A stretch of DNA of 64,000 bases from Bacteroidota bacterium (GTDB lineage: Bacteria; Bacteroidota; Bacteroidia; UKL13-3), in the NCBI GenBank assembly GCA_027484685.1, contig JAIXSO010000059.1, forward strand, positions 1 to 64,000, written 5' to 3'. The position numbers and the translations under genes are program-made. Positions 1,960 through 41,066 of the stretch are shown here, piece after piece (positions within the stretch are counted from its first letter, which is position 1; every line of letters starts with the position of its first letter). The notes under the pieces were generated by a model, which saw only the letters and a program-made list of their open reading frames with translations, was not told the DNA's origin and made no database searches.

Positions 1960-2065
1960 TATTGGTTTTATACTTTAGGTTAATTTATTAAAAGGTTAAA
2001 TTTACATCAAGCATTCAAGCAAATAGATTTAAAATGAGTATGTTTGATGCTTTCTATTTAATGAA

Positions 2066-3547
2066 ATGAAAAATATTAAATACTTATTTTTTGTATTAGC
2101 AGTAATTACCGTTTTGGGTTGTAAAAAAGGGTTTGAAGGCGAGTTAAGTTCTCAGTCAAATCCTGAAACTTTTATGGCGGTTAATAAAATTGAACGCAGT
2201 GGTACCAACAGATTAACTACCCGTGTTGATGCATATTGGTGGGGAACTTCGCAAGATGGTTTTGTGGTTGGTTTTGAAGTTTCAATTGATAGCATGAAAA
2301 CTTGGACTTACACTACCAGAACCGATAGCAGCTTGTTGTTGATTATTCCACAAGGAAGCGATACTGCCGATATTGATGTTTTTGTAAGAGCCATTGATAA
2401 TTTAGGCCAAAAAGATTTAACGCCTGCAAGTTTAGCTTATCCTGTTAGAAATTCTGCTCCTAACGCTGCTATTACCAATATTGCAGGTAAAAAAACTACT
2501 AAATCTTTTCCAGCAGTTCACTTTTTTTGGACAGCAAACGATGCGGATGGTTTACAAGATATAAATGGTTTTGAGGTACTTTTAAACGATACCAATGCTA
2601 CTCCATATACATTAGCCAGCAGTGTAAACGATATTACCATTATGGCCGATAACAATTTTTCAGATTCGTGTTTTGTGTATGTAGGTACTAAAACCAAAGC
2701 GCTTGACGGCCGCATAAAAGGTATTAAATACAATGTTTGGAACTATTTTTATGTAAGAGCTTTTGATAAAGCAGGATTGCGTTCAGCATTTGTTTTCGAT
2801 TCTATTTTTATTAAAAAGCCTGTTTCTAAAGTATTGTTCATCAATGCATATTTAACTTCGCGGAATGCACCACAAAATTTTATAGCTACCAGAACGGTAA
2901 GTTTTATTCCTGCTTTCGATACTTTATATTTAAATAATAGAGATGCGCAACAAAATAGCTTTGAACAATCGCCAGATGCATTAACACAAGCTCGTGTATT
3001 TTCATTTTTCGATAAGATAATTTGGATTAGTGATGAAGGAGCAACTGCTGCCACTTTATCGTTAGCACAAATAAGTACAGCTGATTTTTTTGAAAATGGT
3101 GGCCGTATGTTTATGATGTGTAATTTTGGTTCAGATATTCCAAATGAATTAGAAAGTTTTGGATTTACACCAATTCAAAAATTAGTCAGCGATTCGAGTG
3201 GACTGGCTATACGCATGAATGTAAATGATGAAATGACACCTTTTGACAATACTTGGCCAACTTTAAAATGTAATACCATTATTTCGAGTGCTAGGCCATT
3301 TTTTACCCAAACCACGTCAAGCGGAACTAGTAGTTTTGACTCTACCTATAAAGCTAAGTTGATAACATTAGGTCCTGGTGGTGTTAGACCATTTAATGGA
3401 CAATCTACTGTGGTGGGTAAACGTATTTCGTTAAAATACAATAGAACTGCCTTGGTATTTATGAGTTTACCTGTTCAAAACCTAAATGGAAACAGCAATG
3501 GGAATTTGTTTTTAGAAAAAGTATTAAAAGACGAATTAGGATTTTAG
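2066..3547 (+). CDS. lipoprotein with fibronectin-like domains, function unknown
   Basis: A 493-residue lipoprotein: signal peptide with lipobox VLGC and Cys19 as the lipid attachment site. Residues about 45-125 and 130-250 read as two beta-sandwich (fibronectin III-like) modules, each with phrases such as DGFVVGFEVSIDS and ADGLQDINGFEVLLNDT. The C-terminal half (about 255-490) starts KVLFINAYLT and contains WISDEGATAATLSL, which resembles an alpha/beta fold with a glutamine-amidotransferase-like flavour, but no catalytic triad was identified. It is followed one base later by purN, so the two may be co-transcribed, although purN plainly has its own role. No function can be given. Confidence 0.85.
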   Translation: MKNIKYLFFVLAVITVLGCKKGFEGELSSQSNPETFMAVNKIERSGTNRLTTRVDAYWWGTSQDGFVVGFEVSIDSMKTWTYTTRTDSSLLLIIPQGSDTADIDVFVRAIDNLGQKDLTPASLAYPVRNSAPNAAITNIAGKKTTKSFPAVHFFWTANDADGLQDINGFEVLLNDTNATPYTLASSVNDITIMADNNFSDSCFVYVGTKTKALDGRIKGIKYNVWNYFYVRAFDKAGLRSAFVFDSIFIKKPVSKVLFINAYLTSRNAPQNFIATRTVSFIPAFDTLYLNNRDAQQNSFEQSPDALTQARVFSFFDKIIWISDEGATAATLSLAQISTADFFENGGRMFMMCNFGSDIPNELESFGFTPIQKLVSDSSGLAIRMNVNDEMTPFDNTWPTLKCNTIISSARPFFTQTTSSGTSSFDSTYKAKLITLGPGGVRPFNGQSTVVGKRISLKYNRTALVFMSLPVQNLNGNSNGNLFLEKVLKDELGF

Positions 3548-3548
3548 T

Positions 3549-4112
3549 TTGAAAAACATCATCATATTTGCTTCAGGTAGTGGCAGCAATGCTGAAAATA
3601 TAGCCCAATATTTTACCAATAATAGTAACGTAAAAATACAAGCAGTATTTACCAATAATGCGCAAGCAGGTGTAATTGCGCGCATGGAAAAGTTTAATAT
3701 TCCATGTGTAGTTTTTAACCGTGCAGAGTATAAAGATGAAACTTTTTTCTTAAATAAAATCAACCAATACCAACCTGATTTAATAGTTTTAGCAGGTTTT
3801 TTATGGCTTGTACCTGAATTTTTGGTAAATGCTTTTCCTAATAAAATTATCAATATTCACCCAGCTTTGTTGCCAAAATTTGGTGGAAAAGGCATGTATG
3901 GAATGCATGTGCACGAAGCAGTAAAAGCTGCTAACGAAACCGAAACAGGTATTACCATTCATTATGTAAACCAACATTTTGACGAAGGTGAACCTATATT
4001 TCAAGCCAAAGTAGCATTAACACAAACCGATACTCCCGATTCTATTGCACATAAAATTCATGATTTGGAAATGGCTCATTTCCCAAAAGTGATAGAAAAT
4101 TTATTATTTTAG
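3549..4112 (+). CDS. purN: phosphoribosylglycinamide formyltransferase
   Basis: GAR transformylase of purine biosynthesis: transfers the formyl group of 10-formyltetrahydrofolate to GAR. Its 187 residues match the family. The nucleotide-phosphate loop ASGSGSN is at residues 8-14. The catalytic set Asn102, His104 (INIHPALLP) and Asp145 (HFDEGEPI) corresponds to the Asn/His/Asp of the E. coli enzyme. The likely start is TTG at 3549, one base after the upstream stop, because the protein then begins MKNIIIFASGSGSN exactly as the family does; no ATG lies nearby in frame. It is the last housekeeping gene before the three-gene cassette at 4162-6442. Confidence 0.96.
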   Translation: MKNIIIFASGSGSNAENIAQYFTNNSNVKIQAVFTNNAQAGVIARMEKFNIPCVVFNRAEYKDETFFLNKINQYQPDLIVLAGFLWLVPEFLVNAFPNKIINIHPALLPKFGGKGMYGMHVHEAVKAANETETGITIHYVNQHFDEGEPIFQAKVALTQTDTPDSIAHKIHDLEMAHFPKVIENLLF

Positions 4113-4161
4113 TGGCAGTTGTTGTTATTTTTAGTTTTATTCGTAAAATAAATTTAAAAAG

Positions 4162-4833
4162 ATGCTAAAAGAATATCTTCAGATTAATGCACGAAGTATA
4201 GTTTTCTTAGGTGATTTCAACCCGATTATTATCCAGCCTTTCTGGCTTTCTTCAAAAAAGATAATCAGAGAACTTGAAGCGAAGGATGCCAATGTTGAGG
4301 TTATACATAATGAAATTGTAAAATATACAATTTCTCAGTGGGCATCTTTGGAAATAACGCCCAAGAGGTTTGAGCTGAAGACAACTCAAGAACCTTTTTT
4401 TGAACCGTTAAAAGACTTAGCAATTTCTGTCTTTTCTATTTTGAGAGAGACTCCAATAAGAGCAGTAGGCATAAATCATATATTTCATTATGCATTACCA
4501 GATAAAGAGAGATACTTAAAACTAGGTAAGGTATTATCTCCCTTAGATCAGCTAGACTCCATAATGAATGACCCTAAATTATTGTCTATCGAGTTTGTTG
4601 AAAATCAAAGAAAGGATTCTAATTTAGGACATTACAGGGTTCGAATTGAGCCATCAGATAAAATTCCGGGTGAACAGTTTGGAGTTTCATTAAATATTAA
4701 TGACCATCTTGCAATAGCTGATATTGATGCAAATAATACTGAAATGGCTTTAAGCCTTCTAAAAGACAATTGGCTAAACTCGGCAAATAGAGCAAATAAA
4801 TTAGGAGAAGAGTTATGGAAAAAGATAATGTAG
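4162..4833 (+). CDS. TIGR04255-like hypothetical protein, cassette gene 1
   Basis: A 223-residue cytoplasmic protein without signal peptide or membrane segment. The order of features recalls the sporadically distributed TIGR04255 family: an N-terminal strand set, a central RAVGINHIFHYAL segment (about residues 93-106), then a region rich in paired strands (GHYRVRIEPSD near 153-163) and a C-terminal segment in which a strand pair precedes a long helix. I recall this from memory and have not searched it. It is the first gene of a cassette in which the second gene starts inside its 3' end (overlap 4815-4833) and the third overlaps the second by one base, so translation is probably coupled. Candidate sensor or scaffold; the biochemical role is unknown. 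Confidence 0.75.
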   Translation: MLKEYLQINARSIVFLGDFNPIIIQPFWLSSKKIIRELEAKDANVEVIHNEIVKYTISQWASLEITPKRFELKTTQEPFFEPLKDLAISVFSILRETPIRAVGINHIFHYALPDKERYLKLGKVLSPLDQLDSIMNDPKLLSIEFVENQRKDSNLGHYRVRIEPSDKIPGEQFGVSLNINDHLAIADIDANNTEMALSLLKDNWLNSANRANKLGEELWKKIM

Positions 4834-5360
4834 AGTTATTAACTACTGATTATAATATACCAGTAGTATTGGATAAATTGAATAGTAATTATCAAAAAAA
4901 GAAGGAAAAGCTTGTAGACTTTTTTGATAACTTAGGAGTAAAAAAGTCTTATTTGGAAAACAATGGATCTGAATTTAATTCAGATGAAAAAATAGTGGTT
5001 CCCAATTTTCATGATTCTAAATCAAATTTGCTTGGCAATCATACTAAAAGAACTCAGAGTTGGATCGGATTTATTACACACATATATAGCGATTCTCTAT
5101 CATTTGAGGCCAAAATTTATGATATTTACGATAGGTCAACATATGAGATTCAAACCTTTTATTTTAATGAAATATCGGATGAAGATAAAGAGTTTATTTT
5201 AGAAGGTAGTGTGTTCTATTGGAGTATTGGGCAAAATGTTAGAAATAGTCAAGTTTTTACTGAGTCTTCAATTAGATTTCAAAGATTACCGCAATTGACT
5301 GTTGAAGAAGTTGATGAAGCAATTGATAAAGCAAATGAATTATTTAATTTTTTTGTTTGA
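4815..5360 (+). CDS. small beta-rich hypothetical protein, cassette gene 2
   Basis: A 181-residue cytoplasmic protein that begins 19 bases before the end of gene 1 (ATG at 4815). Residues 1-50 are charged and helical (QKKKEKLVDFF). Residues about 78-160 form a small beta-barrel-like module: WIGFITHIYSDSLSFEAKIYD, then EIQTFYFNEIS, then the striking FYWSIGQN and SSIRFQRLP motifs. I recall short uncharacterised proteins with the same FYWSIG...IRFRRLP signature in other bacteria, often described only as hypothetical; this is memory, not a search. It has no catalytic motif. Its place between a TIGR04255-like protein and a hydrolase suggests a partner or regulator of one of them. Confidence 0.75.
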   Translation: MEKDNVELLTTDYNIPVVLDKLNSNYQKKKEKLVDFFDNLGVKKSYLENNGSEFNSDEKIVVPNFHDSKSNLLGNHTKRTQSWIGFITHIYSDSLSFEAKIYDIYDRSTYEIQTFYFNEISDEDKEFILEGSVFYWSIGQNVRNSQVFTESSIRFQRLPQLTVEEVDEAIDKANELFNFFV

Positions 5361-6442
5361 TGTTTGCAGAGGTAAATCTTATTGGGACCGGTGGTGGTTA
5401 TGGGGAATCTATTGTAATTAATTTAGGGAATAACGAATGGATTATTGTTGATTCTTGTATAAATCCGATCTCTAAAGAACCACTTGCATTGGAATATCTT
5501 CAAGGGAGAGGAGTAAATCTAAAAGAGTCTGTTAAATTAATTATTTGTACCCATTGGCATAATGATCACATTAAAGGACTAAGTAAAATACTTAATGAAT
5601 GCGCAAATGCTAAGTTTTGCTATACTCAAGTTACCGATAAAGCTAAGTTTTTCAGATACATAACATTTGATTCTAAAAAAGTTGTAAGTGATGAAGAAAC
5701 TGCTTCCACAACTGAATTTTTAAAATGTCTAGAAATTTTAAAATTTAGAAAAAGTCAACCTATATACGCTTTTCAAGATAGAAATTTATTTTCGACAGAT
5801 TATGGTTGTTCTATTTATTCCCTAAGCCCATCAGATTATATATTAGATCAGTTTAATGTTGAACTTGAATCTTTGCTTAATAATGACTTTAGTGTTAATC
5901 GTAAACATATAAATAAAACACCAAATAATAAATCAGTGGTACTGTTATTTATGTTTAAAAATCATTGTGCGTTATTAGGTGCTGATTTAGAGGTCTCTAA
6001 AAACAAGAACGAAGGATGGTTTCATATAGTCTCTAATTCTACTGTTTTAAAACCGCTTAAATTAAGTTTATTCAAAATTCCACACCACGGTTCTAAAAAT
6101 GCTTATTTTGAAGATTTGTGGAATTATCACATTGAAAAGAATGCTACTTCGGTTTTAACACCGTTTAATCTGTCAACTAGACTTCCTAAACTAGAGATGC
6201 TTCAAAAATATGCTAATCATACAAATAGTTTGTATATGACATCAAAAGTTACTGATTCACCAAAAGCTAAACCCAGAGCTAAACCAATTGAGAGACTTTT
6301 GAAAAATCTCGATAGAAAACCCTTTGAAGTGAAATTTGAAAAAGGTATCATTAATAATTCGATAAATTTACTTGATTCTGAAGCGACTTGGGAAACAAAG
6401 GTTTTTGAGGCTGCATTTCATGTTAATCCAATATTCAAATAA
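5360..6442 (+). CDS. ComEC/Rec2-type MBL-fold metallohydrolase, cassette gene 3
   Basis: A 360-residue soluble metallo-beta-lactamase-fold enzyme. The metal ligands are all visible: THWHNDH at residues 64-70 (His65, His67, Asp69, His70), the bridging Asp209 in LLGADLE, and the PHHGS motif at 241-245 typical of the ComEC C-terminal domain and its stand-alone relatives. Such enzymes hydrolyse phosphodiesters of nucleic acid or nucleotides. The N-terminal phrase GTGGGYGESIVINLG also fits the family. The start was taken as ATG 5360, which overlaps the previous stop as TGATG; a TTG three bases earlier is possible. Unlike ComEC it has no membrane channel, so it is not a DNA uptake protein. It is the probable effector or catalytic part of the cassette. 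Confidence 0.88.
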   Translation: MFAEVNLIGTGGGYGESIVINLGNNEWIIVDSCINPISKEPLALEYLQGRGVNLKESVKLIICTHWHNDHIKGLSKILNECANAKFCYTQVTDKAKFFRYITFDSKKVVSDEETASTTEFLKCLEILKFRKSQPIYAFQDRNLFSTDYGCSIYSLSPSDYILDQFNVELESLLNNDFSVNRKHINKTPNNKSVVLLFMFKNHCALLGADLEVSKNKNEGWFHIVSNSTVLKPLKLSLFKIPHHGSKNAYFEDLWNYHIEKNATSVLTPFNLSTRLPKLEMLQKYANHTNSLYMTSKVTDSPKAKPRAKPIERLLKNLDRKPFEVKFEKGIINNSINLLDSEATWETKVFEAAFHVNPIFK

Positions 6443-6449
6443 AAAGATT

Positions 6450-7619
6450 TCAACAATTTGGATTTCTTATATTTTCTATAAAATTACTTGCTAAATGGTA
6501 ATTAATATGGAACCAAATAAAAATACAAGGCACTGCTTTTAGTACATAAGGCACTATAATGTGTACACGCACGTATGGTGGGAATAAATCGGTTGGCGAA
6601 AGGCTGGTAAGTAAAATACAACTGATTAGTAAACCATTTTTAAGTTTGCTAGCAGGCATCAATAAGTAATACAATGCCACACCTACCAATGCTATATTAA
6701 ACGTACTCGATTCGGCTTTATGGTTAAAAATAATTACCCAAATACAACTACTGGCAAAAAGTAAAGTACGTTGTGTAGCTGTATTGTTTTTTATAAATAA
6801 TAAAATGCTTGTGCCCAATATTAATAAGCCTGCACCAACTACAGCAGTTTTATTTGGCTCAATAAAAAACCAAGTTTTTATCCAACCCATTACCGAAAGA
6901 CCATAACTTACCGAATGATCTTGTTGAAGCATTAACCACCAACTTTTGTATAAAAAAATCAACTGATTTGGGCTAACTACTACCAACGGAATTAGGAGCA
7001 ATACCACAAACCAAATAATTGACCATAAAATAAATTTAGGTTTTTGGTTATACAATAAAAATAATGGAAAAAGTATCAAGCCAAATAATTTTATAAATAC
7101 CGAAAGCATGAGCATTAATGCTGCCCAATTAGGTTTTTCTGATTCAAAAAAATGATAAGCAAACAGGAACAATATAACCATTAATATATTGGTTTGTGCG
7201 CTTTGCAAACTGGTTAGTGTTTCAAAAAAAATCAATAATAAAGCTATTTGTTTTTGGGTAGTATTTAAAATATTTAGCTTAAAAATAGCCCATAACAACA
7301 AAACGGTACTTGTTAAATTCCATACTACCAAACCAAGCCAATCGGGTAGAATGGCAAATGGTGCCATGGCCAAAGCAAAGGCCGGACTGTATTTAAATAA
7401 ATCGTATTGATCAGTTAAATGATGGATGTAAAGGTCTTTGTAATCAATTAAATGGATGAACGAATATTTGAAAATTACATAGTTATTATAATGCGTGTAA
7501 GTGCCACCAAAAGTATTATTGGGCAATAAATATAAATGCAAACTAGCCACAATGGTAGCCAATATATAAAGCCCAATAAGGGTTTTATCTTGCATAAAAA
7601 ACGCTTTGATTTTTTGCAT
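6450..7619 (-). CDS. GT87/DUF2029-like membrane glycosyltransferase
   Basis: A 389-residue integral membrane protein with about ten hydrophobic segments. The loop after the first segment contains DLYIHHLTDQYDLFKYSPAF, the KYSPxFAL signature of the GT87 (DUF2029) family, which uses polyprenyl-phosphate sugars, as in mycobacterial mannosyltransferases. The donor and acceptor here are unknown. It ends 8 bases from the convergent cassette gene 3 and is 13 bases from the RDD gene stop (7633) on the same strand, so it is probably the distal gene of a minus-strand group with the RDD and YifB genes. The family call rests on topology plus the motif. Confidence 0.8.
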   Translation of the reverse strand: MQKIKAFFMQDKTLIGLYILATIVASLHLYLLPNNTFGGTYTHYNNYVIFKYSFIHLIDYKDLYIHHLTDQYDLFKYSPAFALAMAPFAILPDWLGLVVWNLTSTVLLLWAIFKLNILNTTQKQIALLLIFFETLTSLQSAQTNILMVILFLFAYHFFESEKPNWAALMLMLSVFIKLFGLILFPLFLLYNQKPKFILWSIIWFVVLLLIPLVVVSPNQLIFLYKSWWLMLQQDHSVSYGLSVMGWIKTWFFIEPNKTAVVGAGLLILGTSILLFIKNNTATQRTLLFASSCIWVIIFNHKAESSTFNIALVGVALYYLLMPASKLKNGLLISCILLTSLSPTDLFPPYVRVHIIVPYVLKAVPCIFIWFHINYHLASNFIENIRNPNC

Positions 7620-30407: not shown

Positions 30408-31298
30408 ATGAGAAAGTTAGTAGTAGTAATGGCAGCATTAGCCATGTTTGGAGTGAGTAGTTGTGGTAAAAAAATGCAAACAACTGAAAATGGAATTAAT
30501 TACAGAATTATTCAAAGTTCTGACACTGCGCGTTTAATAACTAAAGGCGATTTGATGATGATTCAAATGATTGGTTTAGGTCAATTAGCTGATTCGTTAG
30601 GTGGAAAAGATACAACCATTTTTGATTCATATAAAGTTGGAAAAGCATATTATATACCTGCTGATGAAACTACTTTAAAAGATGTGTTTATGATGTTACA
30701 TAAAGGCGATAGTGCTGAATTTGAGGTAAGTGCAGATACATTATTTATGAAAAGTTTTGGTCAGTTAACGCCTGGTTTCTTAAAGAAAAATAGTAATATT
30801 CACTTTTATGTAAAGGTGGAAAATATTTATAGCCAAAGCGAATTAGAGGTTATGAAAGCCGAAGAAAGAGCAAAATCTATTATGAAAGATTCAGTAGAAG
30901 CTGCTGCTTATATTGCTAATTTAACCAATGTGCAAACTACCACAAGTGGTTTAAAATATGTAATTACTAAACCTTCAAAAGGTGCGCAACCTAAAGCTGG
31001 CCAAGAAGTGAGTATGCTTTACAGAGGTTTATTATTGAACGGTACAAAATTTGACGAAAACCAAGACGAGGCAAATCCATTTAAATTTACTGTTGGTATG
31101 CGTCAAGTAATTCCAGGTTGGGATGAAGGTGTAATGTTATTGCACGAAGGTGAAGAGGCTAAATTTATTATACCTGCTCGCTTAGCTTATGGCGAACAAG
31201 GTGGTGGGCCAATTCCTCCAAACTCAACCTTGATTTTTGACGTAAAGTTATTGAAAATTAATACAGCCCCTAAGACACCAACTGCAAAAGGAAATTAA
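30408..31298 (+). CDS. FKBP-type peptidyl-prolyl isomerase, lipoprotein, cluster gene 1
   Basis: A 296-residue lipoprotein, lipobox VSSC with Cys19. The C-terminal domain (about 188-285) is a full FKBP fold: KAGQEVSMLYRGLLLNGTKFDENQ, then IPGWDEGVMLLHEGEEAKFIIPARLAYGEQG and IPPNSTLIFDVKLL. The N-terminal half (about 30-150) has a strand set with YYIPADETTLKDVFMMLHKGDSAEF that resembles a second, degenerate FKBP domain. It catalyses cis-trans isomerisation of proline bonds, presumably in the periplasm. The next gene starts 1 base after it, so the four genes 30408-33931 are probably co-transcribed with nrnA. Confidence 0.92.
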   Translation: MRKLVVVMAALAMFGVSSCGKKMQTTENGINYRIIQSSDTARLITKGDLMMIQMIGLGQLADSLGGKDTTIFDSYKVGKAYYIPADETTLKDVFMMLHKGDSAEFEVSADTLFMKSFGQLTPGFLKKNSNIHFYVKVENIYSQSELEVMKAEERAKSIMKDSVEAAAYIANLTNVQTTTSGLKYVITKPSKGAQPKAGQEVSMLYRGLLLNGTKFDENQDEANPFKFTVGMRQVIPGWDEGVMLLHEGEEAKFIIPARLAYGEQGGGPIPPNSTLIFDVKLLKINTAPKTPTAKGN

Positions 31299-31299
31299 G

Positions 31300-32184
31300 A
31301 TGCAAAAGGTTGTTTCAATATTAATTCTATGTTTTTTTGTAGTAAGTAGCGTATTTTCTCAAAAAGGGAAATCGGTAGCCACTAACACCTTTACTAAACT
31401 AAGTAAAGGTGTTAGTTATAAAATAGTTACTACTGGGCCCAATAATAAAAAACTAAAATTGAATGATTTGCTGTTGATTAATTTATTGGGAATAGGCAAA
31501 ACAACCAATGGGAAAGATACGGTAGTGTTCAATACTTATGGTAGTGGAAAGCCATTTTATATTCCTGTTACAGAGCCCACATTTACCGAAGTTTTTTTGA
31601 AGTTATATAAAAACGACAGTGCTATTTTAAATATCAATGCTGACTCTCTTTTTACAAACAGTTTTGGACAACCTGCTCCAGATTTTTTAGCTAAAAATAG
31701 CATTATTAAATTTAATTTAAAAGTAGTAGAAGTTTTTGATGAAAAAGAAGTTGAAGAATTAAGAGAATCTGAGCGAGCTAAGACAGTTGCAAAAGATTCA
31801 ATAGAAATAAATGCGCTTTTGGCTAAATATAAAGACATAAAAACAACTGCTTCTGGTTTAAAATATATTATTACTAAACCAACTACTGGCAAAATTCCTC
31901 AAAAAGGTGATGAAGTTGAAATGAATTATACTGGAATGTTTGCAGACGGGAAAAAATTTGATGAGAATTTAAATATAGCAAATCCATTTAGTTTTAAATT
32001 AGGATTAGGACAAGTTATAGCTGGTTGGGATGAAGCAATTATGTTACTTCACGAGGGTGAAGAAGCAAAGCTAATAATTCCTTCTAACTTAGGTTATGGC
32101 GAGCAAGGAGCAGGCCCAATTCCACCAAATGCTTCACTGGTTTTTGATGTAAAATTATTGAAAATTAAATCTAACACTAAATAA
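31300..32184 (+). CDS. FKBP-type peptidyl-prolyl isomerase, cluster gene 2
   Basis: A 294-residue exported protein (signal peptide ending about residue 21, SVFSQ). Same plan as gene 1: a degenerate N-terminal FKBP-like half (LLLINLLGIG, YIPVTEPTFTEVFLKLYKND) and an intact C-terminal domain (GDEVEMNYTGMFADGKKFDEN; VIAGWDEAIMLLHEGEEAKLIIPSNLGYGEQG; IPPNASLVFDVKLLK). It starts 1 base after gene 1 and its stop shares the A of the next gene's ATG. The N-terminal half has drifted from gene 1 but the C-terminal half stays close, as expected of a recent duplicate under selection for isomerase function. Confidence 0.9.
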   Translation: MQKVVSILILCFFVVSSVFSQKGKSVATNTFTKLSKGVSYKIVTTGPNNKKLKLNDLLLINLLGIGKTTNGKDTVVFNTYGSGKPFYIPVTEPTFTEVFLKLYKNDSAILNINADSLFTNSFGQPAPDFLAKNSIIKFNLKVVEVFDEKEVEELRESERAKTVAKDSIEINALLAKYKDIKTTASGLKYIITKPTTGKIPQKGDEVEMNYTGMFADGKKFDENLNIANPFSFKLGLGQVIAGWDEAIMLLHEGEEAKLIIPSNLGYGEQGAGPIPPNASLVFDVKLLKIKSNTK

Positions 32185-33035
32185 TGAAAAAATCGGCTAT
32201 CATCATTGCTTTATTAATTTTTTCCATCAAAATCCATAGTCAAACTTGGATTAAGACAGATGGTGGTACAGTATTTAAGTACATTACCAAAAACGAAAAA
32301 GGCCGTAAAATTAGACCAAACATGATTATGTTGGTTGATTTATTAGGCAAAGTACAAAAGGCAGGTAATATAGCTGAAGACACAGTAATTTTTAACAGTG
32401 GTACAAGCGATAAACCTTTTTATATTCCTACCGAACAGCCTGGCCTTCAAAATGTGTTTTATAATTTAAATACTGGCGATAGTATTGAAATAAAAATAAT
32501 TGCAGATACATTTTATAACAAAGTATTTGCAGCAAATCTGCCTGATTTTGTGGCAAAAGGTAGTATAGTAACACTTTATTTTCATGTTCAAGAAGCTTTA
32601 ACTAAAGAAGAAATTGAGGATAGGGTAAAAATTCAAAACACCAAAGCTGTTAAGTCTGACTCCTTAAATGTATTGAAATACTGTAATAAAATAAAAGGTG
32701 TAAAAAAGTTGGCAAGTGGATTGCGCTATAAACCTTTAAAGTTAAATCCAACAGGTACCTTAGCAAAAAAGGGTTCAATGGTTTCGGTTAGGTACAAAGG
32801 TTGGCTTATAGATGGTGATGTATTTGACGAAAATGAAACTGGTGAGCCATTTAAATTAGTGTTAGGAATGAACCAAGTAATTAAAGGTTGGGAAGAAGGG
32901 CTTAAACTAATGAAAACCGGAGAAAAATATAGGCTTATAATACCTTGGTATTTAGCTTATGGAACTTTGGGCAATGGCCCAATACCTCCTTTTACCAGCA
33001 TTGTTTTTGATGTGCAATTAATTGAAATTAAGTAA
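32184..33035 (+). CDS. FKBP-type peptidyl-prolyl isomerase, cluster gene 3
   Basis: A 283-residue exported protein (signal peptide about 1-19, KIHSQ). Its C-terminal FKBP domain has GSMVSVRYKGWLIDGDVFDEN, VIKGWEEGLKLMKTGEKYRLIIPWYLAYG and IPPFTSIVFDVQLIEIK. The N-terminal half is again an altered FKBP-like part (MIMLVDLLGKV ... FYIPTEQPGLQNVFYNL). Start ATG 32184 overlaps the end of gene 2 by one base. It is the most diverged of the first three, and its domain has WYLAYGTLG where the other two have NLGYG/RLAYG, so a different client or reduced activity is possible. Confidence 0.9.
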   Translation: MKKSAIIIALLIFSIKIHSQTWIKTDGGTVFKYITKNEKGRKIRPNMIMLVDLLGKVQKAGNIAEDTVIFNSGTSDKPFYIPTEQPGLQNVFYNLNTGDSIEIKIIADTFYNKVFAANLPDFVAKGSIVTLYFHVQEALTKEEIEDRVKIQNTKAVKSDSLNVLKYCNKIKGVKKLASGLRYKPLKLNPTGTLAKKGSMVSVRYKGWLIDGDVFDENETGEPFKLVLGMNQVIKGWEEGLKLMKTGEKYRLIIPWYLAYGTLGNGPIPPFTSIVFDVQLIEIK

Positions 33036-33049
33036 TATACTAAAATAAT

Positions 33050-33931
33050 ATGAAAAAAAGTACCGCAACATTATTATTGGTTTTATCTTCTTCGTTTTTG
33101 TTTGCACAGCAAGCAAAAGGTGGCAAAAAACAAGCTAAAACCAAAGCAAAAACAACTCCAATAGCAACAATAAAGAAAGTAGAAAATAAGATGGATTCTA
33201 ATGAAACAGTAACCGCAAGCGGTTTAAAAGTTAAAATTACGGAACACGGAATTGGTCGTCAGGTACAAAAAGGCGATAAAGTAACAGCTCATTATACTGG
33301 TTTACTAACCGATGGTAAAAAGTTTGATAGCTCAAAAGATAGAAATCAACCGTTTTCGTTTAAAGTTGGCGTTGGACAAGTAATAGCTGGTTGGGATGAA
33401 GGTTTTCAGTTATTAAAGGTGGGTGATAAAGCAACTTTTACCATTCCTCCACAAATAGCTTACGGTGCTTCTGGTGCTGGTGGGGGAGTAATACCGCCAA
33501 ATGCTACTTTGGTTTTTGATGTAGAAGTTATTGATGCTGTTGAAGCTCCTAAACCTCGTCCTGCAGTTCCTTACGATGTTACAGGATTAGATACTGTAAA
33601 AATGCAAAGTGGTTTGCGTTTTGTAAAAGTAGAGTCGGGTAATGGTGTAAAGGCTCAACAAGGTAAATATGTTTCGGTACACTATACCGGCTATTTAATG
33701 GATGGCAAAAAATTCGATTCATCAGTAGAACGTGGTGAGCCAATTGAGTTTCAATTAGGTAGAGGCATGGTTATTAAAGGTTGGGAAGAAGGAATAGAGC
33801 TAATGCATGTTGGCGATAAAATGCGTTTTATTATTCCTAGCGAATTGGCTTATGGCGAAAATGGAGCTCCTGGAGCTATTCCTCCAAATGCTACTTTAAT
33901 TTTTGATTGCGAATTAGTAGATGTACAATAA
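33050..33931 (+). CDS. exported double-FKBP peptidyl-prolyl isomerase, cluster gene 4
   Basis: A 293-residue exported protein (signal peptide about 1-20, SFLFAQ) with two clear FKBP domains instead of one degenerate and one intact. Domain 1 (about 55-165) has GDKVTAHYTGLLTDGKKFDSS, QVIAGWDEGFQLLKVGDKATFTIPPQIAYG and IPPNATLVFDVEV. Domain 2 (about 190-290) has GKYVSVHYTGYLMDGKKFDSS, VIKGWEEGIELMHVGDKMRFIIPSELAYG and AIPPNATLIFDCELVDVQ. The lysine-rich linker after the signal (KGGKKQAKTKAKTTP) is unusual. It ends the FKBP run, 14 bases after gene 3, and is followed by a strong terminator. Confidence 0.92.
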   Translation: MKKSTATLLLVLSSSFLFAQQAKGGKKQAKTKAKTTPIATIKKVENKMDSNETVTASGLKVKITEHGIGRQVQKGDKVTAHYTGLLTDGKKFDSSKDRNQPFSFKVGVGQVIAGWDEGFQLLKVGDKATFTIPPQIAYGASGAGGGVIPPNATLVFDVEVIDAVEAPKPRPAVPYDVTGLDTVKMQSGLRFVKVESGNGVKAQQGKYVSVHYTGYLMDGKKFDSSVERGEPIEFQLGRGMVIKGWEEGIELMHVGDKMRFIIPSELAYGENGAPGAIPPNATLIFDCELVDVQ

Positions 33932-33960
33932 ATAAACATTTACATAACAATATATTAAAA

Positions 33961-33990
33961 GTCGGCCAATGTAAATTGGCCGACTTTTTT
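33961..33990 (+). terminator. Rho-independent terminator after the FKBP cluster
   Basis: GTCGGCCAAT...ATTGGCCGAC forms a 10-bp stem followed by a T run, 30 bases after the stop of the last FKBP gene. It ends the nrnA-FKBP group cleanly before the regulatory region of the TonB receptor. Confidence 0.9.
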
Positions 33991-33995
33991 GTTGT

Positions 33996-34046
33996 TAACC
34001 TTATGGTAACATTGTGGTAATTTATACATAACCTGAAGGTAACATT
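33996..34046 (+). promoter_or_regulatory. five-fold 11-bp-period repeat, PhoB/PhoP-type operator candidate
   Basis: Heptamers TAACCTT, TAACATT, TAATTTA, TAACCTG, TAACATT begin at 33996, 34007, 34018, 34029 and 34040, each 7 bases with 4-base spacers. The 11-bp period and TTAACA-like unit resemble the boxes bound by PhoB/PhoP (OmpR-family) response regulators. The last unit ends 18 bases before the -7-like box TTCCTTTG at 34065. Confidence 0.75.
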
Positions 34047-34064
34047 CTGTTTAAAAGGTAATAG

Positions 34065-34072
34065 TTCCTTTG
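34065..34072 (+). promoter_or_regulatory. -7-like promoter box of the TonB receptor (TTCCTTTG)
   Basis: One mismatch to TAnnTTTG, 20 bases before the ATG at 34093. It has exactly the same spacing (18 bases) from the operator repeats as the -7 box at 37112. Confidence 0.5.
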
Positions 34073-34092
34073 CGGCAGGTTAATTTTAGAAA

Positions 34093-36960
34093 ATGAATAG
34101 ATTATTTAAACATGCACTCGTGTTTGCTTTTATTATTACAAGCATATCATTTGTGTCGGCCCAAACGGGCAAAATTTCTGGTAAAGTACAAGATAAAAAT
34201 ACCGGGGAAGCCATTATTTCAGCAGTAGTTAGCATTCCTGCATTAAGTTTATCAACTACTACCGATTTTGAAGGAAAATACATTTTGCAAAACGTAAAAG
34301 CGGGAACCTATACATTAACAGTATCTTATGTTAATTACATAAAAAAAGAAATTCCTAATGTAGTTGTAGAAGCTAAAGAAACTGAGGTTATTAATGTTTC
34401 GCTTGAGGAAAAAGAAAGTTTAAAAGCTATTACTATTAAAGGCAAAGTTAAAAGAGAAAGCGCAAACGAAGTTTTAATTCAACAGAAGGCAGCCATCGCG
34501 GTATCAAGTGGGGTATCGGCTGAGGCAATTAGAAAAACACCAGATAGAACTACCGCTGATGTTATTAAACGTGTAAGTGGTGCTAGTATTCAAGATGGAA
34601 AGTTTGCCATTGTTCGCGGTTTAGGCGATAGATACAATATGGGCTTTATAAATGGAGCTCCATTACCTAGCTCTGAAAGCGATAGAAAAGCATTTAGTTT
34701 AGATATTATTCCAGCAGCAGTATTGGATAATATGATGATTACCAAAACTGCTACACCTGATATGCCAGGTGATTTTGCAGGAGGTTTTATTCAAATAAAT
34801 ACCAAAGATATTCCAGACGAAAACAATACTTCAGTTCAATTAGGATTAGGTACACATTCACTAACTACTTTTCAAAATACCAACCGTGTTGGTGGTGGTT
34901 CAACCGATTTTTTAGGTTTTGATAACGGCAATAGAGCTATTCCTGCTGGATTTCCTGGAACTGATGCTTCAAAAGCAATAACCGATAATGCTAAATTAGC
35001 TAATTATACCAAAGGTTTTAACAATAATTTTGCGCCAGAAAATGTAAGTTTTACACGTCCTAATTTTAACTTACAGGCTAATAGCAGCCGTAGATGGAAA
35101 ATTGGTAAAAACGATTTTGGTGTAGTAGGAGCATTAACTTATAGTAATTCATTGCGTTATATGCCATTTACTATTAGAAATGTGGACGGTGCTAACACTA
35201 TTAATGAACTTGCTGACAATGCCAAATATGATGGCTCAACACTAGATTATAATAACTATAGAAATACAGTAAACTTAGGTGGTATTTTAAATTTTAGTTA
35301 TAAAATAGGTAAAAATACAAAGTTGGTATTTAAAAACTTAATTACCCAAACGGGCGATGATCAAACCATTACTAGAACTGGAAGCTCAATTAAAGGTGTT
35401 AACGATCCAATTGAATCGCAAGTAGAGCGTAAGTTTCAACATTATATTTACCAATACCAACAAAGCAGAATGATTAGTTCTCAGTTCGGTGGAGATCATT
35501 TTTTTACAGGGTCTAAAATAAAAGTGAACTACACATTAGGCTATAATAATTTAAATAAGCAAATGCCTGATTTTAAACGTTTGTTTTATCAAGCAGATAG
35601 AAATGTATCTACTGAGTTTGGTGCAACTGAAGCTCAAATTACGGATAACGCTAGTGCTTTTTCGGTAGCGAATAGTGGTAGATTTGTTTCTAATTTATCA
35701 GAAAATAGTTTCAATGCCAATTATAGTGCAACCATTCCATTTAAATTTTTACCAAAAGTATTTGCTCGTAACGAGTTAAAAGTGGGTGGAATGAATATGT
35801 ATAGAACACGCGATTTTAAGGCCAGAAACTTTATATATACATTTAATGGAAATGTGTTTGATAGAAATATTTTACAGAGCGATGTCAGCACATTGTTCAA
35901 CAATATAGGCGAAAATGGAATTTTTCAAAAAGAAACAACTCAAAAGTTTGATTCGTATGATGCAAATTCAACCTTACATGCAGGCTTTATTATGTTAAAT
36001 CAAAAATTAAGTAATTTAAGATTGATTTATGGTGTTAGAGTTGAAAGCTTTAATCAAAAGGTAAATTCGTTTGATAACAGTGGTAATCCAGTAAATGTTA
36101 ATAGCACGGTTGTTGATTTTTTACCTTCATTAAATGCAATTTATGAAATTACTAATAAACAAAATTTACGTTTAGGTTATGCTAAAACTGTTTCGCGACC
36201 TGAATTTAGAGAGTTTGCTCCATTGGCCTTTTTTGAGGTAAACTATAACGGGGTAGTAACAGGCAATCCAAACTTGGTTAGAGCAACCATTGACAATTTA
36301 GATTTGAAATGGGAAATGTTCCCATCAGCTGGTCAAACCTTTTCAGTAAATCCATTTTATAAAAGATTTACCAATCCAGTGGAGTTAATTGCGAATCCTG
36401 CCTTGGATGGTGCTTTACAATTTACTTATGGTAATGCGGCCGAAGCATATAATTATGGTGTGGAGTTAGAAGCAAGAGTTACTTTGAGTACTTTTACTAA
36501 AAACAAAGCAGGTATATTAAATAGATTTACCTTGTATTCTAATTTTAGCTTTATTCAGTCAGAAGTTAACGTGGGTGCAATGGGCGGAGCTGTAACTAAC
36601 AGACCTTTACAAGGACAGTCTCCTTATGTATTCAATGCTGGGGTTAACTATAGCAATCCTAAAAAATTCTTTGATATTACTTTAAATGCCAATAGAGTAG
36701 GAAGACGTATTGCATTTGTGGGTACTCAAGATAATTTTACTATTTGGGAAAACCCAAGAACAATATTAGATGCAAGTATTTCAAAAACATTTAAAAAGAA
36801 ATTGATAGCTAAATTAACCATGGGCGATTTGTTAGCTCAAAACTTAGTTTTCTATCAAGATTTAAATAAAAACGGTAACTATGATGAAGGTAAAGATATT
36901 GCTACTTTCAACTACCGATTTGGGTTCACAACTTCATTTTCATTAACCTATAATTTTTAG
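34093..36960 (+). CDS. TonB-dependent receptor, operator-linked to a T9SS protein
   Basis: A 955-residue outer-membrane receptor. Signal peptide about 1-23 (SFVSAQ). Residues about 26-115 are a CarboxypepD-like domain (ISGKVQDKNTGEAIISAVVS). The plug (about 130-240) has the variant block ADVIKRVSGASIQDGKFAIVRGLGDRYNM and ends QINTKDIPDENNTS. The barrel runs to ...GFTTSFSLTYNF. It resembles the receptor type (VIKRVSGASIQDGKFAIVRGLGDRYN) that stands alone rather than with SusD-like partners. Repeats of the 33996 operator precede both it and the next gene, so co-regulation is likely; phosphate import or phosphate-ester uptake is possible, but only inferred from the operator type. Confidence 0.9.
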   Translation: MNRLFKHALVFAFIITSISFVSAQTGKISGKVQDKNTGEAIISAVVSIPALSLSTTTDFEGKYILQNVKAGTYTLTVSYVNYIKKEIPNVVVEAKETEVINVSLEEKESLKAITIKGKVKRESANEVLIQQKAAIAVSSGVSAEAIRKTPDRTTADVIKRVSGASIQDGKFAIVRGLGDRYNMGFINGAPLPSSESDRKAFSLDIIPAAVLDNMMITKTATPDMPGDFAGGFIQINTKDIPDENNTSVQLGLGTHSLTTFQNTNRVGGGSTDFLGFDNGNRAIPAGFPGTDASKAITDNAKLANYTKGFNNNFAPENVSFTRPNFNLQANSSRRWKIGKNDFGVVGALTYSNSLRYMPFTIRNVDGANTINELADNAKYDGSTLDYNNYRNTVNLGGILNFSYKIGKNTKLVFKNLITQTGDDQTITRTGSSIKGVNDPIESQVERKFQHYIYQYQQSRMISSQFGGDHFFTGSKIKVNYTLGYNNLNKQMPDFKRLFYQADRNVSTEFGATEAQITDNASAFSVANSGRFVSNLSENSFNANYSATIPFKFLPKVFARNELKVGGMNMYRTRDFKARNFIYTFNGNVFDRNILQSDVSTLFNNIGENGIFQKETTQKFDSYDANSTLHAGFIMLNQKLSNLRLIYGVRVESFNQKVNSFDNSGNPVNVNSTVVDFLPSLNAIYEITNKQNLRLGYAKTVSRPEFREFAPLAFFEVNYNGVVTGNPNLVRATIDNLDLKWEMFPSAGQTFSVNPFYKRFTNPVELIANPALDGALQFTYGNAAEAYNYGVELEARVTLSTFTKNKAGILNRFTLYSNFSFIQSEVNVGAMGGAVTNRPLQGQSPYVFNAGVNYSNPKKFFDITLNANRVGRRIAFVGTQDNFTIWENPRTILDASISKTFKKKLIAKLTMGDLLAQNLVFYQDLNKNGNYDEGKDIATFNYRFGFTTSFSLTYNF

Positions 36961-36994
36961 TTGTTTTTGTATTCAAAAAAATGGCTATTTAAAC

Positions 36995-37025
36995 TAAACC
37001 CTGTAAGAAGTTGCAGGGTTTTTTT
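36995..37025 (+). terminator. terminator of the TonB receptor gene
   Basis: AAACCCTGTAA...TTGCAGGGTTTTTT folds into a stem with a T run, just downstream of the stop at 36960. It precedes the second operator-repeat cluster. Confidence 0.75.
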
Positions 37026-37042
37026 ATGCTCAAATGTGTAGT

Positions 37043-37093
37043 TAACATTTAAGTAATACTACATTTACCTAAGCATAACCTTGAAGTAACATA
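37043..37093 (+). promoter_or_regulatory. second five-fold 11-bp-period repeat, same operator type
   Basis: Heptamers TAACATT, TAATACT, TTACCTA, TAACCTT, TAACATA begin at 37043, 37054, 37065, 37076 and 37087, period exactly 11. The last unit ends 18 bases before the -7 box TACTTTCG at 37112, the same distance as at the receptor gene. Confidence 0.75.
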
Positions 37094-37111
37094 CACGCAA
37101 CAACGGCAATC

Positions 37112-37119
37112 TACTTTCG
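37112..37119 (+). promoter_or_regulatory. -7-like promoter box of the T9SS protein (TACTTTCG)
   Basis: TACTTTCG matches TAnnTTTG at all but one position, 20 bases before the ATG at 37140. Confidence 0.5.
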
Positions 37120-37139: not shown

Positions 37140-40100
37140 ATGAAAACAAAGATTTCCTTATTAATTCTAGCTGTAATGATTTACAGCAATGGTTTTGCCC
37201 AGTTTTTCGATTCAGTTCCATTTCGTGGAGCTTTTGGAGTAAACGGAACTACTAAGAATATTTCATCAGGGTATAATCCTGATCCAACTAACACTTCGGC
37301 CGATTGGAGTAAACCTTGGGCTAATTGGACCCCAAATGCTACTGCATATCCAGGTGATGCTGGCTACAACTCAAGTAACCCTCAGTTTTTTACAGTAGGA
37401 ACCGCTGCCGAAAAAGTAGTATTAAGTGGCGATATTGCTTCTGACTTAACTTTATCGAGCAGCAAATGGTACGAAATTAGTGGAACAATCCACGTTTTAA
37501 ATGGAGCTACTTTAACCATTCCCGCTGGAACTTGTTTACGCGGAAGTACAACAAATATTGGTGTTTTAATTATTGCCAAAGGTGGTAAATTAAACGCTGT
37601 TGGTACCAAAGATCATCCAATTGTAATTACCTCAGGTAAAGCTGCTGGTTCACGTATTCGTGCCGATTGGGGTGGATTATTATTAATTGGTAATGCTCAT
37701 ACCAATACTCCAGGTGGAGCTCGTCAATACGAAGCTTTACCTTCTGATCCATTAGCTAATTATGGTGGAGGTTTAAATCCTAACGATGCAGATAACAGTG
37801 GTACAATGCGTTACATGCGCATTGAGTTTGCTGGTTTTAACTACTTACCAGATCAAGAAATTAACGGGATTACCTTTGCAGGAGTTGGTAGTGGTACTAA
37901 AGCCGATTATTTAATGGTTAGTTTTTCAAACGATGATAACTTTGAATGGTTTGGTGGTGCCGTAAATCATAAATACCTTATCTCTTTTGCAAGTACTGAT
38001 GATGAGTTTGATATGGATGAAGGTTACAATGGAAAATGTCAATATTTATTAGGTGTGCGTAATCCTGCTGTTTTTGAAACTTCACCAACTGGAACATCAA
38101 ATGGTTTAGAACATGATAATAATACAGGTTTAGGTACTTCTGGTGTTATTAATCCAAATACGCCAACTCCAACCCCAACTACTGCTCCTGTTATTTCTAA
38201 TATGACTTTGGTTGGACCAATTAAAGCAGGTTCAAACAGAACAACTTTATCAACTACTGCAAATTCACGTTTTGGTAGAGCTTTAGAGTATAGAACAAAT
38301 GTTTCTACATCGGTATTTAATTCAGTAATTTGGGGTTACCCAACATTATTCCAATTAGGAAACCCAACAGGTACTTTCCCTGCTAGTACTCAAACAAGAG
38401 CTTTTGATGATCAATTATCGTTAAGAAATTCAACATTTATTTCAACTGCTACAGGCAGTGATGTAAGATTTAACAGTCAAAATGCACCAACTTATAATAG
38501 TGTAAGTTTAAATACTTCATGGATGCGTAATTGGTTAATTAACGGCCCAACTGTAGGTTTTACTGGTGCTACCGATAATGATACAGTAAGAACTACTTTA
38601 ACAGTAGGTACTGAATTTACAAACCCAATTTATGCTGGTACTACTAACGGTGCTTTAAATCAATTAGATTTTTCAGGTGTTGACTATACTTTAGCAGTTG
38701 GAAGTCCATTTGCCAATGCATCTAATTTTAGTCATCCAAAAATTTCGGTAGTTCCAACTCCAAGTGTTGCTATTACTGCCTCTAGCTTGGCTCCATTTAA
38801 TATCATTTTAGGTCAACCTTTGCAAGTAAAATGGATTGTTTTAACTGCAAGTGCTTTAGCTGGTAATGTAAATATTACTGCACCAACTAATTTTGAAATC
38901 TCATGGAGCAGAACTACTGGTTGGGCTGCTAATATCTCTAAAAATGGTCCTGCTGTTAATGATACAATATTTGTACGTTTTAATAGAACCTCTACTGGTT
39001 CTAACAATGGTTTCTTAAACGTTTCTTCAACTGTTTCAGCTGATTTTAGCCCATTAAATATTGCATTAAACGGAACTGCTGTAGCACCTGCTGCAGCTTA
39101 TGTAAATATAACTGAAAGTGGATTAAGTTTTAACAACGCTGTTGGTGCTCCAACTACTGCTATGTTTAGCATTTTAGGTAAAAACTTAGTTGATACAGTA
39201 GCTTTGGTAGCTCCTACTAATTTTGAAATTTCGTTAAATGCTACTTCGGGTTTTGCTCAAACTTTAACTTTAAACAACCCTGTTAAACCTTCTTTTGCAT
39301 CTACTTTGGTTTATGTAAGGTACAATCCTACAACTGCTTCTGCATCACACAGCGGTAATTTAGTTGTATCATCTAAAACTATTGATGCTATCAATATAAC
39401 TTTAGCTGGAAATTCAGCTGCTACTTTAACTTCATCACCAGCTCAGTTAACTGAAATTGCTACTATTGTTGGAACTCCATCATTGGCTTATGCTATTTCA
39501 TTATCAGGTGTTAAATTAAGCGATACTGTAAAAGTGGTTGCTCCTGCTGGTTTCCAATTATCAATTGATTCAGTATTTACAACTCCAGTTACTTCATTAA
39601 ACTTAAATATTCCTACTGCTGCGGTATTGGCTAATACCAAAGTTTATGTACGCTATAATCCATCATCCGCTGGTACTGCAACAGGTAATGTTTCAATTTC
39701 GAGCACAGGTGCTACCACTAGAAACGTGGTTGTAACAGGCAGAGCTTTAGCTGCTAATGCAAAAGCGGTTTTTGCTTATTCGTCAGCTTTTTCATTAGTA
39801 TTTACTACTATTTTTACCACTCCTGCTGTTCCGTCAGCTTCTCAAGCTATAACTGTAAGTGGTATAAACTTAGGAACTGATTCATTGGTTGTAACTGCTC
39901 CTTCAAGCTTTGAAGTTTCATTAGATAATTCAAACTATGTTTCGGTAATTAAATTAGGAAATATTGGCGGAATAGTTGCTCCTACAACGGTTTATGTGCG
40001 TTACAATCCAGTTGTTCAATCGGCACAAAACCAACAGTTATATGTTCACTTATCGTCTGCTAATCCATCAACTACTTCAAGTGCAACAAATGTTGTAATG

Positions 40101-41066
40101 TTTGTAAACGGAAATTCATCTCCATCAATTACAGTTAATTCATCGGTTGAGCCAACATTATACACTACTTTTGGTAAACCATCGGTTGCTTCATCGGTAA
40201 TAGTTAATGGAACTCGTTTGGTTGACAATGTAATTGCAACTGCTCCTACTGGTTTCGAATTATCTTTAGATTCAGTTAACTTTACTACTTCGGTAACTAT
40301 TAATAAAACAGGTACTACTTTAGCTAATACTACAGTTTATATTCGCTTTAACCCTAGTGTAGCTGGTGCTTCTGCTCCTAATAGTTTTGTTTCGTTCAAT
40401 ACAGTGAATGGTGCTGCTGTTCCAGTTGCAGTTTCAGGTATAGCAGTTGTTCCTGCTACTCCAATTGTTTCATTATCTACTGCTACTTTACCAATGTTTA
40501 CTACTAACGGTGTGGTTCCAACTGCTCCAGTTTCATTTACATTCAACGCACAAAACTTAGTAGCTGATTTAGCTATAACAGTTGGTAACGATTTTGAACT
40601 TTCAAACGATTCAGTAACTTATAAAAACACTTGGAATATTACTCCTGATGTAGATGGTAATATTGGAACTACTAAATTATTCTGTCGCTTTAAACGCGCT
40701 ACTACTGGTTCGGTAAGCGATAGTATTAAATTTAACAGTACTAACTTAGTTGAACAAGCAATTGCTTTAACTGGTAAAAATACTACTGGTGTAGTTGAAG
40801 TAAATGCAGTTTCTGCTTTAAAATTATATCCAAATCCTGCTAGCAGCCAAGTTGCAGTTGAGTTTGAATTAAACGAAAATAGCCAAGTAACTATTGCTAT
40901 AGTTGATTTGAGTGGTAAAATAGTTGGAACCACAGTTTCTAACCAATTTAATAAAGGTTTTAACAGTGTAGAAATTCCTACTAGCGATTTATTAAATGGT
41001 TTCTATTTTGTAAACATTGTTTCAGAAAAAGGAGCTAAAACTGCTAAACTTTCAGTTATTAAATAA
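37140..41066 (+). CDS. giant T9SS-secreted protein with beta-helix-like N-terminal part and six repeats
   Basis: A 1308-residue secreted protein (signal peptide about 1-20, NGFAQ). Residues about 100-540 read as strand-rich, solenoid-like sequence (GGKLNAVGTKDHPIVITSGKAAGSRIRADWGGLLLIGNAH), which suggests a right-handed beta-helix; the DDNFEWFGGAVNHKYLISFASTDDEFDMDEGY segment is distinctive. Residues about 541-1220 hold six repeats of about 90-110 residues, each with a (AP)xxFE(I/L)S(L/W) core and an ending V(Y/R)xRxNP. The C terminus from YPNPASSQVAVEFELNENSQVTIAI onward is a type A T9SS sorting domain. It shares the operator of the receptor gene. It may be a surface anchor or a binding partner; function unknown. 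Confidence 0.88.
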   Translation: MKTKISLLILAVMIYSNGFAQFFDSVPFRGAFGVNGTTKNISSGYNPDPTNTSADWSKPWANWTPNATAYPGDAGYNSSNPQFFTVGTAAEKVVLSGDIASDLTLSSSKWYEISGTIHVLNGATLTIPAGTCLRGSTTNIGVLIIAKGGKLNAVGTKDHPIVITSGKAAGSRIRADWGGLLLIGNAHTNTPGGARQYEALPSDPLANYGGGLNPNDADNSGTMRYMRIEFAGFNYLPDQEINGITFAGVGSGTKADYLMVSFSNDDNFEWFGGAVNHKYLISFASTDDEFDMDEGYNGKCQYLLGVRNPAVFETSPTGTSNGLEHDNNTGLGTSGVINPNTPTPTPTTAPVISNMTLVGPIKAGSNRTTLSTTANSRFGRALEYRTNVSTSVFNSVIWGYPTLFQLGNPTGTFPASTQTRAFDDQLSLRNSTFISTATGSDVRFNSQNAPTYNSVSLNTSWMRNWLINGPTVGFTGATDNDTVRTTLTVGTEFTNPIYAGTTNGALNQLDFSGVDYTLAVGSPFANASNFSHPKISVVPTPSVAITASSLAPFNIILGQPLQVKWIVLTASALAGNVNITAPTNFEISWSRTTGWAANISKNGPAVNDTIFVRFNRTSTGSNNGFLNVSSTVSADFSPLNIALNGTAVAPAAAYVNITESGLSFNNAVGAPTTAMFSILGKNLVDTVALVAPTNFEISLNATSGFAQTLTLNNPVKPSFASTLVYVRYNPTTASASHSGNLVVSSKTIDAINITLAGNSAATLTSSPAQLTEIATIVGTPSLAYAISLSGVKLSDTVKVVAPAGFQLSIDSVFTTPVTSLNLNIPTAAVLANTKVYVRYNPSSAGTATGNVSISSTGATTRNVVVTGRALAANAKAVFAYSSAFSLVFTTIFTTPAVPSASQAITVSGINLGTDSLVVTAPSSFEVSLDNSNYVSVIKLGNIGGIVAPTTVYVRYNPVVQSAQNQQLYVHLSSANPSTTSSATNVVMFVNGNSSPSITVNSSVEPTLYTTFGKPSVASSVIVNGTRLVDNVIATAPTGFELSLDSVNFTTSVTINKTGTTLANTTVYIRFNPSVAGASAPNSFVSFNTVNGAAVPVAVSGIAVVPATPIVSLSTATLPMFTTNGVVPTAPVSFTFNAQNLVADLAITVGNDFELSNDSVTYKNTWNITPDVDGNIGTTKLFCRFKRATTGSVSDSIKFNSTNLVEQAIALTGKNTTGVVEVNAVSALKLYPNPASSQVAVEFELNENSQVTIAIVDLSGKIVGTTVSNQFNKGFNSVEIPTSDLLNGFYFVNIVSEKGAKTAKLSVIK

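Follow-up and report, generated by a model that had tools for sequence, protein, structure and literature searches.

Putative Pho boxes, direct-repeat arrays at an 11-bp pitch, precede the genes for a TonB-dependent receptor and a secreted beta-helix protein in a Bacteroidota genome

Gene organization and promoter architecture

The window, the whole 64,000-nt stretch of contig JAIXSO010000059.1 that was analyzed, carries a gene for a TonB-dependent receptor followed by a gene for a large secreted protein, and each is preceded by an array of five short direct repeats and a -7 box (Table 1). Four consecutive secreted FKBP-like genes (30408-33931; Pfam was run on the last one) lie immediately 5′ of array 1. 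The match of the receptor to NCBIfam TIGR01782 is below the cut-off. In the secreted protein, the N-terminal part is conserved in shorter homologues, and an AF2 model of low confidence (mean pLDDT 57) predicts a parallel beta-helix (pectate-lyase-like) with a fold match to pectate lyase Pel9A, in agreement with IPR011050, the entry given for the F. johnsoniae counterpart. Judged from domain make-up and from gene order in other Flavobacterium species, the pair appears to be the counterpart of Fjoh_0545 (receptor) and Fjoh_0546 (lipoprotein FII). Receptor and beta-helix partner probably capture a substrate that would contain phosphorus.

Table 1. Features of the receptor and secreted-protein region, in window positions
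Feature	Position	Strand	Basis or remark
Intrinsic-terminator-like hairpin, 14-pair stem then T-rich tail, 3′ of upstream FKBP gene	33957..33988	+	
Array 1, predicted PhoB site, five 7-bp units (TAACmTT), 11-bp pitch	33996..34046	+	R1 47.0 bits (training-set member)
-7 box TTCCTTTG, Bacteroidota type TAnnTTTG	34065..34072	+	18 bases past array 1
TonB-dependent receptor, 955 aa, carboxypeptidase-regulatory-like N-terminal domain	34093..36960	+	Pfam
Intrinsic-terminator-like hairpin between receptor and T9SS genes	36996..37021	+	
Array 2, predicted PhoB site, five 7-bp units, 11-bp pitch	37043..37093	+	R1 44.8 bits (training-set member)
-7 promoter box TACTTTCG	37112..37119	+	18 bases past array 2
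Secreted protein, 1308 aa: N-terminal parallel beta-helix, repeat region, T9SS C-terminal sorting domain	37140..41066	+	Por_Secre_tail, homologues

The units of array 1 are TAACCTT (33996), TAACATT (34007), TAATTTA (34018), TAACCTG (34029) and TAACATT (34040), and those of array 2 are TAACATT (37043), TAATACT (37054), TTACCTA (37065), TAACCTT (37076) and TAACATA (37087); degeneracy is seen in unit 3 of array 1 and in units 2 and 3 of array 2. A sequence-only reading of this DNA had listed these heptamers as starting in steps of exactly 11, with 18 bases to a -7-like box and 20 more to the ATG, and every coordinate and both spacings are correct for the two arrays, the ATG codons being at 34093 and 37140. 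The start of the last unit in array 1 is 29 bp from TTTG, one of the two distances preferred in relatives (see below), and the same 29 bp separates the last unit start of array 2 from its box core if this is read as TTCG. Both arrays stand in an identical register relative to the promoter.

When both strands of the window were scanned for five TAAC cores at an 11-bp pitch, arrays 1 and 2 were the top two positions, with scores of 19/20 and 18/20, and the remaining scores of at least 16 were these arrays themselves, shifted by 11 bp. In 200 runs of a first-order Markov null, scores of at least 17 came up at 0.025 positions per strand and scores of at least 18 never did, and no pitch from 5 to 24 other than 11 reached 17 in the window.

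A terminator-like hairpin separates the last FKBP gene from the receptor promoter, and the second, between the receptor and T9SS genes, implies that the latter gene requires its own promoter. With such hairpins ahead of both arrays, each gene probably forms a transcription unit of its own with its own operator. A weak match at 33925-33972 to the sequence model R1 (described below), also present in genus members, was discounted, as it is out of register and overlaps the terminator together with the final part of the FKBP gene.

Conservation of the array upstream of receptor homologues

The receptor homologues compared here come from two sources, whole genomes belonging to the same genus, family and class, and 79 contig loci spread over Bacteroidota. 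An array is present at the 99% level of shuffles in 93-97 of 109 usable upstream regions; these regions are related, and the pitch was therefore evaluated with 76 less redundant ones. In this set, drawn from relatives that are not mutually independent and include many Flavobacterium, 43 regions score at least 17/20 for five units with an 11-bp pitch, whereas none does so at the remaining pitches between 6 and 17. Of 52 TTTG occurrences, 32 lie 18 bp and 12 lie 29 bp after the start of the last unit, and an alignment of 32 arrays has the TAACATT units in phase with TAnnTTTG. Both window arrays also recur in several species of the same genus. The number of units varies from about three to six among relatives, so that the five units of the window arrays, previously regarded as more than usual, are not exceptional.

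The arrays have the make-up of a Pho box, in which two or more units of 6-8 bp are repeated directly every 11 bp. Their distance from the -10/-7 box is fixed, at 18 or 29 bp from TTTG, and places them over the -35/-33 region. In relatives they also stand before known phosphate genes, namely pst, phoB and genes for OprP-like porins; in the genome of the window this holds for phoB alone, with three units.

Phosphate genes that carry the array

An array at the 99% shuffle level precedes 22 of the phoB-like genes of 30 relatives, the phoB of the window genome among them. For pstS, the upstream regions from 16 genomes of the class contain an array at the 11-bp pitch in 7 cases, compared with 2.75% of shuffles, and R1, which was not trained on pstS, gives matches of 29.3, 26.9, 25.5, 23.6 and 23.0 bits within four of the array-bearing pstS loci. 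In one genome (contig L216 of G028), genes for the receptor, the T9SS beta-helix protein, an OprP-like porin, pstSCAB and phoU are consecutive and several of them have an array in front, and in two others (G026 and G021) arrays are located ahead of Porin_O_P genes, with pstS next. R1 independently picked the array before the gene for a 1288-aa beta-helix/T9SS homologue in G026. Within the 79 contig loci (L037-L115), a phoB match (E value of 1e-50 or better) lies no more than 6 kb from the receptor gene in 55, mostly in divergent orientation, and a beta-helix gene is near the receptor in nearly all. A perfect fourfold TAAC pattern, searched in 117 genomes, matches mostly receptor homologues, in addition to a second class of arrays (see below) and simple repeats, and also hits L144 and L146, at genes for a porin-like protein and a PhoB-like regulator, respectively.

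Several further sites were noted. Beside the pst/porin cluster, a gene with array-like sites upstream (L216:1412-2092, L292:1849-2580) encodes a small exported protein that contains a CxTNxRR-like motif; it is possibly phosphatase-like, and Pfam gave no match for the L216 copy. An array-like site (22 bits) is also present ~140 bp upstream of a gene for a Kup-type potassium transporter (L302:1063-3015, G025). Two weak R1 matches in genus members (L304, L305) were discarded as they are located inside genes, and a plasmid search with PhoB returned generic response regulators only.

Regulator, kinase and candidate regulon in the same genome

The phoB-like gene of the window genome (G000:C3, L251:5042-5743) encodes a receiver and a winged-helix DNA-binding domain (PF00072 and PF00486). 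The protein scores below the cut-offs of the curated models, at 218.9 versus 270 bits for the best, RespRegPhoBBctds, and at 212.3 versus 296.2 bits for TIGR02154, and is termed PhoB-like because it closely matches the phoB located beside the receptor in other species. Its gene is preceded by a site of three units, TAACAATTAACTAACAATAATCTAATTAA, that scores 11/12 and is missed by R1. An unlinked phoR-like gene (G000:C10:60032-61057) encodes a kinase 44% identical, over nearly its full length, to the F. seoulense kinase encoded beside phoB. A search of the genome for PhoU found none, and one for PstS, the single Pst component covered, gave no match at 1e-30; the sole good PBP_like_2 protein has a neighborhood that is not pst-like. 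On the question raised by the sequence-only reading, whether phosphate genes carry the array, phoB, pstS and porin genes do in relatives; in this genome phoB has the three units, and the PiT-porin operon (L218), an expected carrier, has no clear array.

Among the R1 matches obtained in this genome, the two window arrays come first, partly by construction as both were in the training set of this sequence model, and the next matches have 19.5 and 17.6 bits. The 19.5-bit site (L288:3176-3249, G000:C25), which is weak, is before the gene (1763-3160) for a 465-aa T9SS-tailed protein. The 17.6-bit site (L289:2863-2941, G000:C58), also weak and in register, is before a gene (2962-7001) for a choice-of-anchor I protein with a 5′-nucleotidase C-terminal domain, plausibly an extracellular phosphatase and a candidate phosphate-regulated exoenzyme. 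TAAC patterns with few mismatches are not enriched in the genome over a reversed-pattern control, in a scan that is too blunt for a regulon of few sites, and this is consistent with only few sites being strong. The gap to the next R1 matches and the recurrence of both window sites in genus members indicate that the strong regulon is very small, with the two window promoters plus, as weak candidates, the 5′-nucleotidase-like exoprotein, the T9SS protein and phoB.

Phosphate control and alternative explanations

The array is very probably the docking site of PhoB in Bacteroidota, since it is present before phosphate-uptake genes and the phosphate regulator across the phylum. With a probability of roughly 0.88, both window arrays are Bacteroidota Pho boxes from which PhoB would activate the receptor and its partner under phosphate limitation. 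The earlier suggestion that TonB receptor and T9SS protein share a phosphate-linked operator for an OmpR/PhoB-family regulator is largely borne out by the comparison, namely arrays before phoB, pstS and OprP-like porin genes, phoB near the receptor, and induction in F. johnsoniae. On phosphate depletion of F. johnsoniae, log2FC values of 8.0 and 9.9 were reported for Fjoh_0545 and Fjoh_0546, respectively, and both genes belong to the PhoBR cluster in which PhoB is Fjoh_0544 (PMC8115612). The text of that report names no Pho box.

Bacteroidota promoters have a -33 element in the zone that the array covers. When phosphate is limiting, PhoR would phosphorylate PhoB, an OmpR-family regulator, which would then bind head-to-tail on one face of the helix, presumably with cooperative strength, each 11-bp unit (TAACATT and the 4 bp that follow) taking up a single DNA-binding domain. 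The promoter-proximal units, 18 and 29 bp ahead of TTTG, would occupy the place of the -33 box; as these units cover the -33 zone, PhoB most likely replaces the -33 contact, by analogy with E. coli, and would recruit RNA polymerase to the -7 box, TAnnTTTG. Two separate promoters would thereby be switched on, making the TonB-dependent outer-membrane receptor and the secreted beta-helix partner the putative outer-membrane arm of the phosphate-starvation response.

That the arrays bind a different OmpR-family regulator, for example one responding to metal or envelope stress, with TAAC cores at an 11-bp pitch and a secondary link to phosphate, is improbable. A second class of 11-bp TAAC arrays is present ahead of small Cys/Lys-rich and cytochrome-like secreted proteins, so that PhoB is not proved by pitch and core on their own. 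A gene for a CusR-like regulator in the window genome (L127) also has a weak array. The second class, however, is spelled differently, in a fixed wording of its own, and serves other targets. The window type is found before phoB, pstS and OprP-like porin genes and next to phoB, and the corresponding F. johnsoniae pair is induced by phosphate depletion (PMC8115612). The four-unit form of the second class, TAACAAGTCrTTAACAAGnCAATAACTnnTnnnTAAC, is present near position 1500 of L129, L131-L133, L135, L136, L145, L148, L149 and L151, before genes for small Cys/Lys-rich secreted proteins, cytochrome-like lipoproteins and other exported proteins. It looks like a separate OmpR-family regulon, and a search of a wider phylum sample, 247 genomes in all, gave no instance of it.

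PhoB bound at these sites might instead repress or fine-tune transcription, as the arrays overlap the promoter and bound protein could also block polymerase, but this is a very remote prospect given that the constant 18- or 29-bp phase to the -7 box suits activation by contact and that the F. johnsoniae counterparts go up, not down, on phosphate depletion (PMC8115612). Least credible, to the point of being negligible, is that chance or a recent promoter duplication produced an array likeness with no regulatory meaning. The two arrays are close together and alike in their AT-rich composition, but their scores were never reached in the Markov nulls, their sequences differ while core, pitch and register are kept, and both are retained in several species of the genus, with the receptor array conserved across the phylum at one pitch only.

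A wider proposal, to which we give slightly less than even odds, is that the arrays represent a phylum-wide, polymerase-phased Pho operator of about three to six units, undescribed for Bacteroidota. In this genus its strongest, and almost its only, outputs would be the receptor and beta-helix partner, and in genomes with PhoU and a recognizable operon-type PstS not found, the core output would be outer-membrane scavenging instead of Pst transport. A literature search found no stated Pho box sequence for Bacteroidota, although most subscription papers were beyond reach and novelty is thus unproven. In B. fragilis, expression of pstC requires PhoB, and PhoB binds the pst promoter in EMSA; the text of this report was searched and no site consensus was found (PMC3547664).

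Bacteroidota, which scavenge phosphorus strongly and are dominant in guts, soils and algal blooms, have few operators that are legible at the sequence level. With its fixed promoter register, a defined Pho box is useful because it would make phosphate control readable in Bacteroidota, with phosphate-regulated genes predictable directly from their genomes, and low-phosphate control is thereby assigned to a widespread pair of TonB receptor and beta-helix protein.

Comparison with known systems

The B. subtilis PhoP unit is TTAACA, and this fits the window arrays. PhoB proteins bind head-to-tail to direct repeats (PMC4415409), and the operators of B. subtilis PhoP and Streptomyces PhoP similarly consist of direct-repeat 11-nt units (PMC4415409), but in other phyla and at other promoters. 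The Streptomyces PhoP unit is GTTCACC, in simple and in complex multi-unit operators. The E. coli Pho box also has direct 11-nt units, arranged head-to-tail just 5′ of the -10 box (PMC4415409, PMC1906773), but its unit is CTGTCAT, with at least two units, and the promoter has a sigma-70 -10 box rather than TAnnTTTG. Of the sites described so far, the one most like the window arrays is the cyanobacterial Pho box bound by SphR, in which at least three tandem 8-bp units, CTTAACCT, are separated by 3-bp linkers, giving an 11-bp pitch, and which has the TTAAC core and the pitch in common with the window arrays (PMC1906773). Unlike this site, the Bacteroidota arrays have about three to six units with the consensus TAACATT in fixed phase with TAnnTTTG.

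In gene content, the nearest system is the PUSIV/PhoBR cluster of F. johnsoniae (Fjoh_0541-0549), which similarly combines PhoB, a TonB receptor and a beta-helix lipoprotein and is strongly induced by phosphate depletion (PMC8115612). In the window genome, in contrast, phoB and phoR are located elsewhere and the partner is the 1308-aa T9SS protein, not a short lipoprotein. ElpS and Cc0171 of Caulobacter are likewise a co-occurring secreted protein and TonB receptor, and ElpS is made in phosphate starvation; ElpS is, however, a lipoprotein exported by a T2SS, and cc0171 is reported to be expressed alike in rich and poor media (PMC2996285). The F. johnsoniae study relates its FI, FII and FIII lipoproteins to a low-Pi lipoprotein of Caulobacter (PMC8115612).
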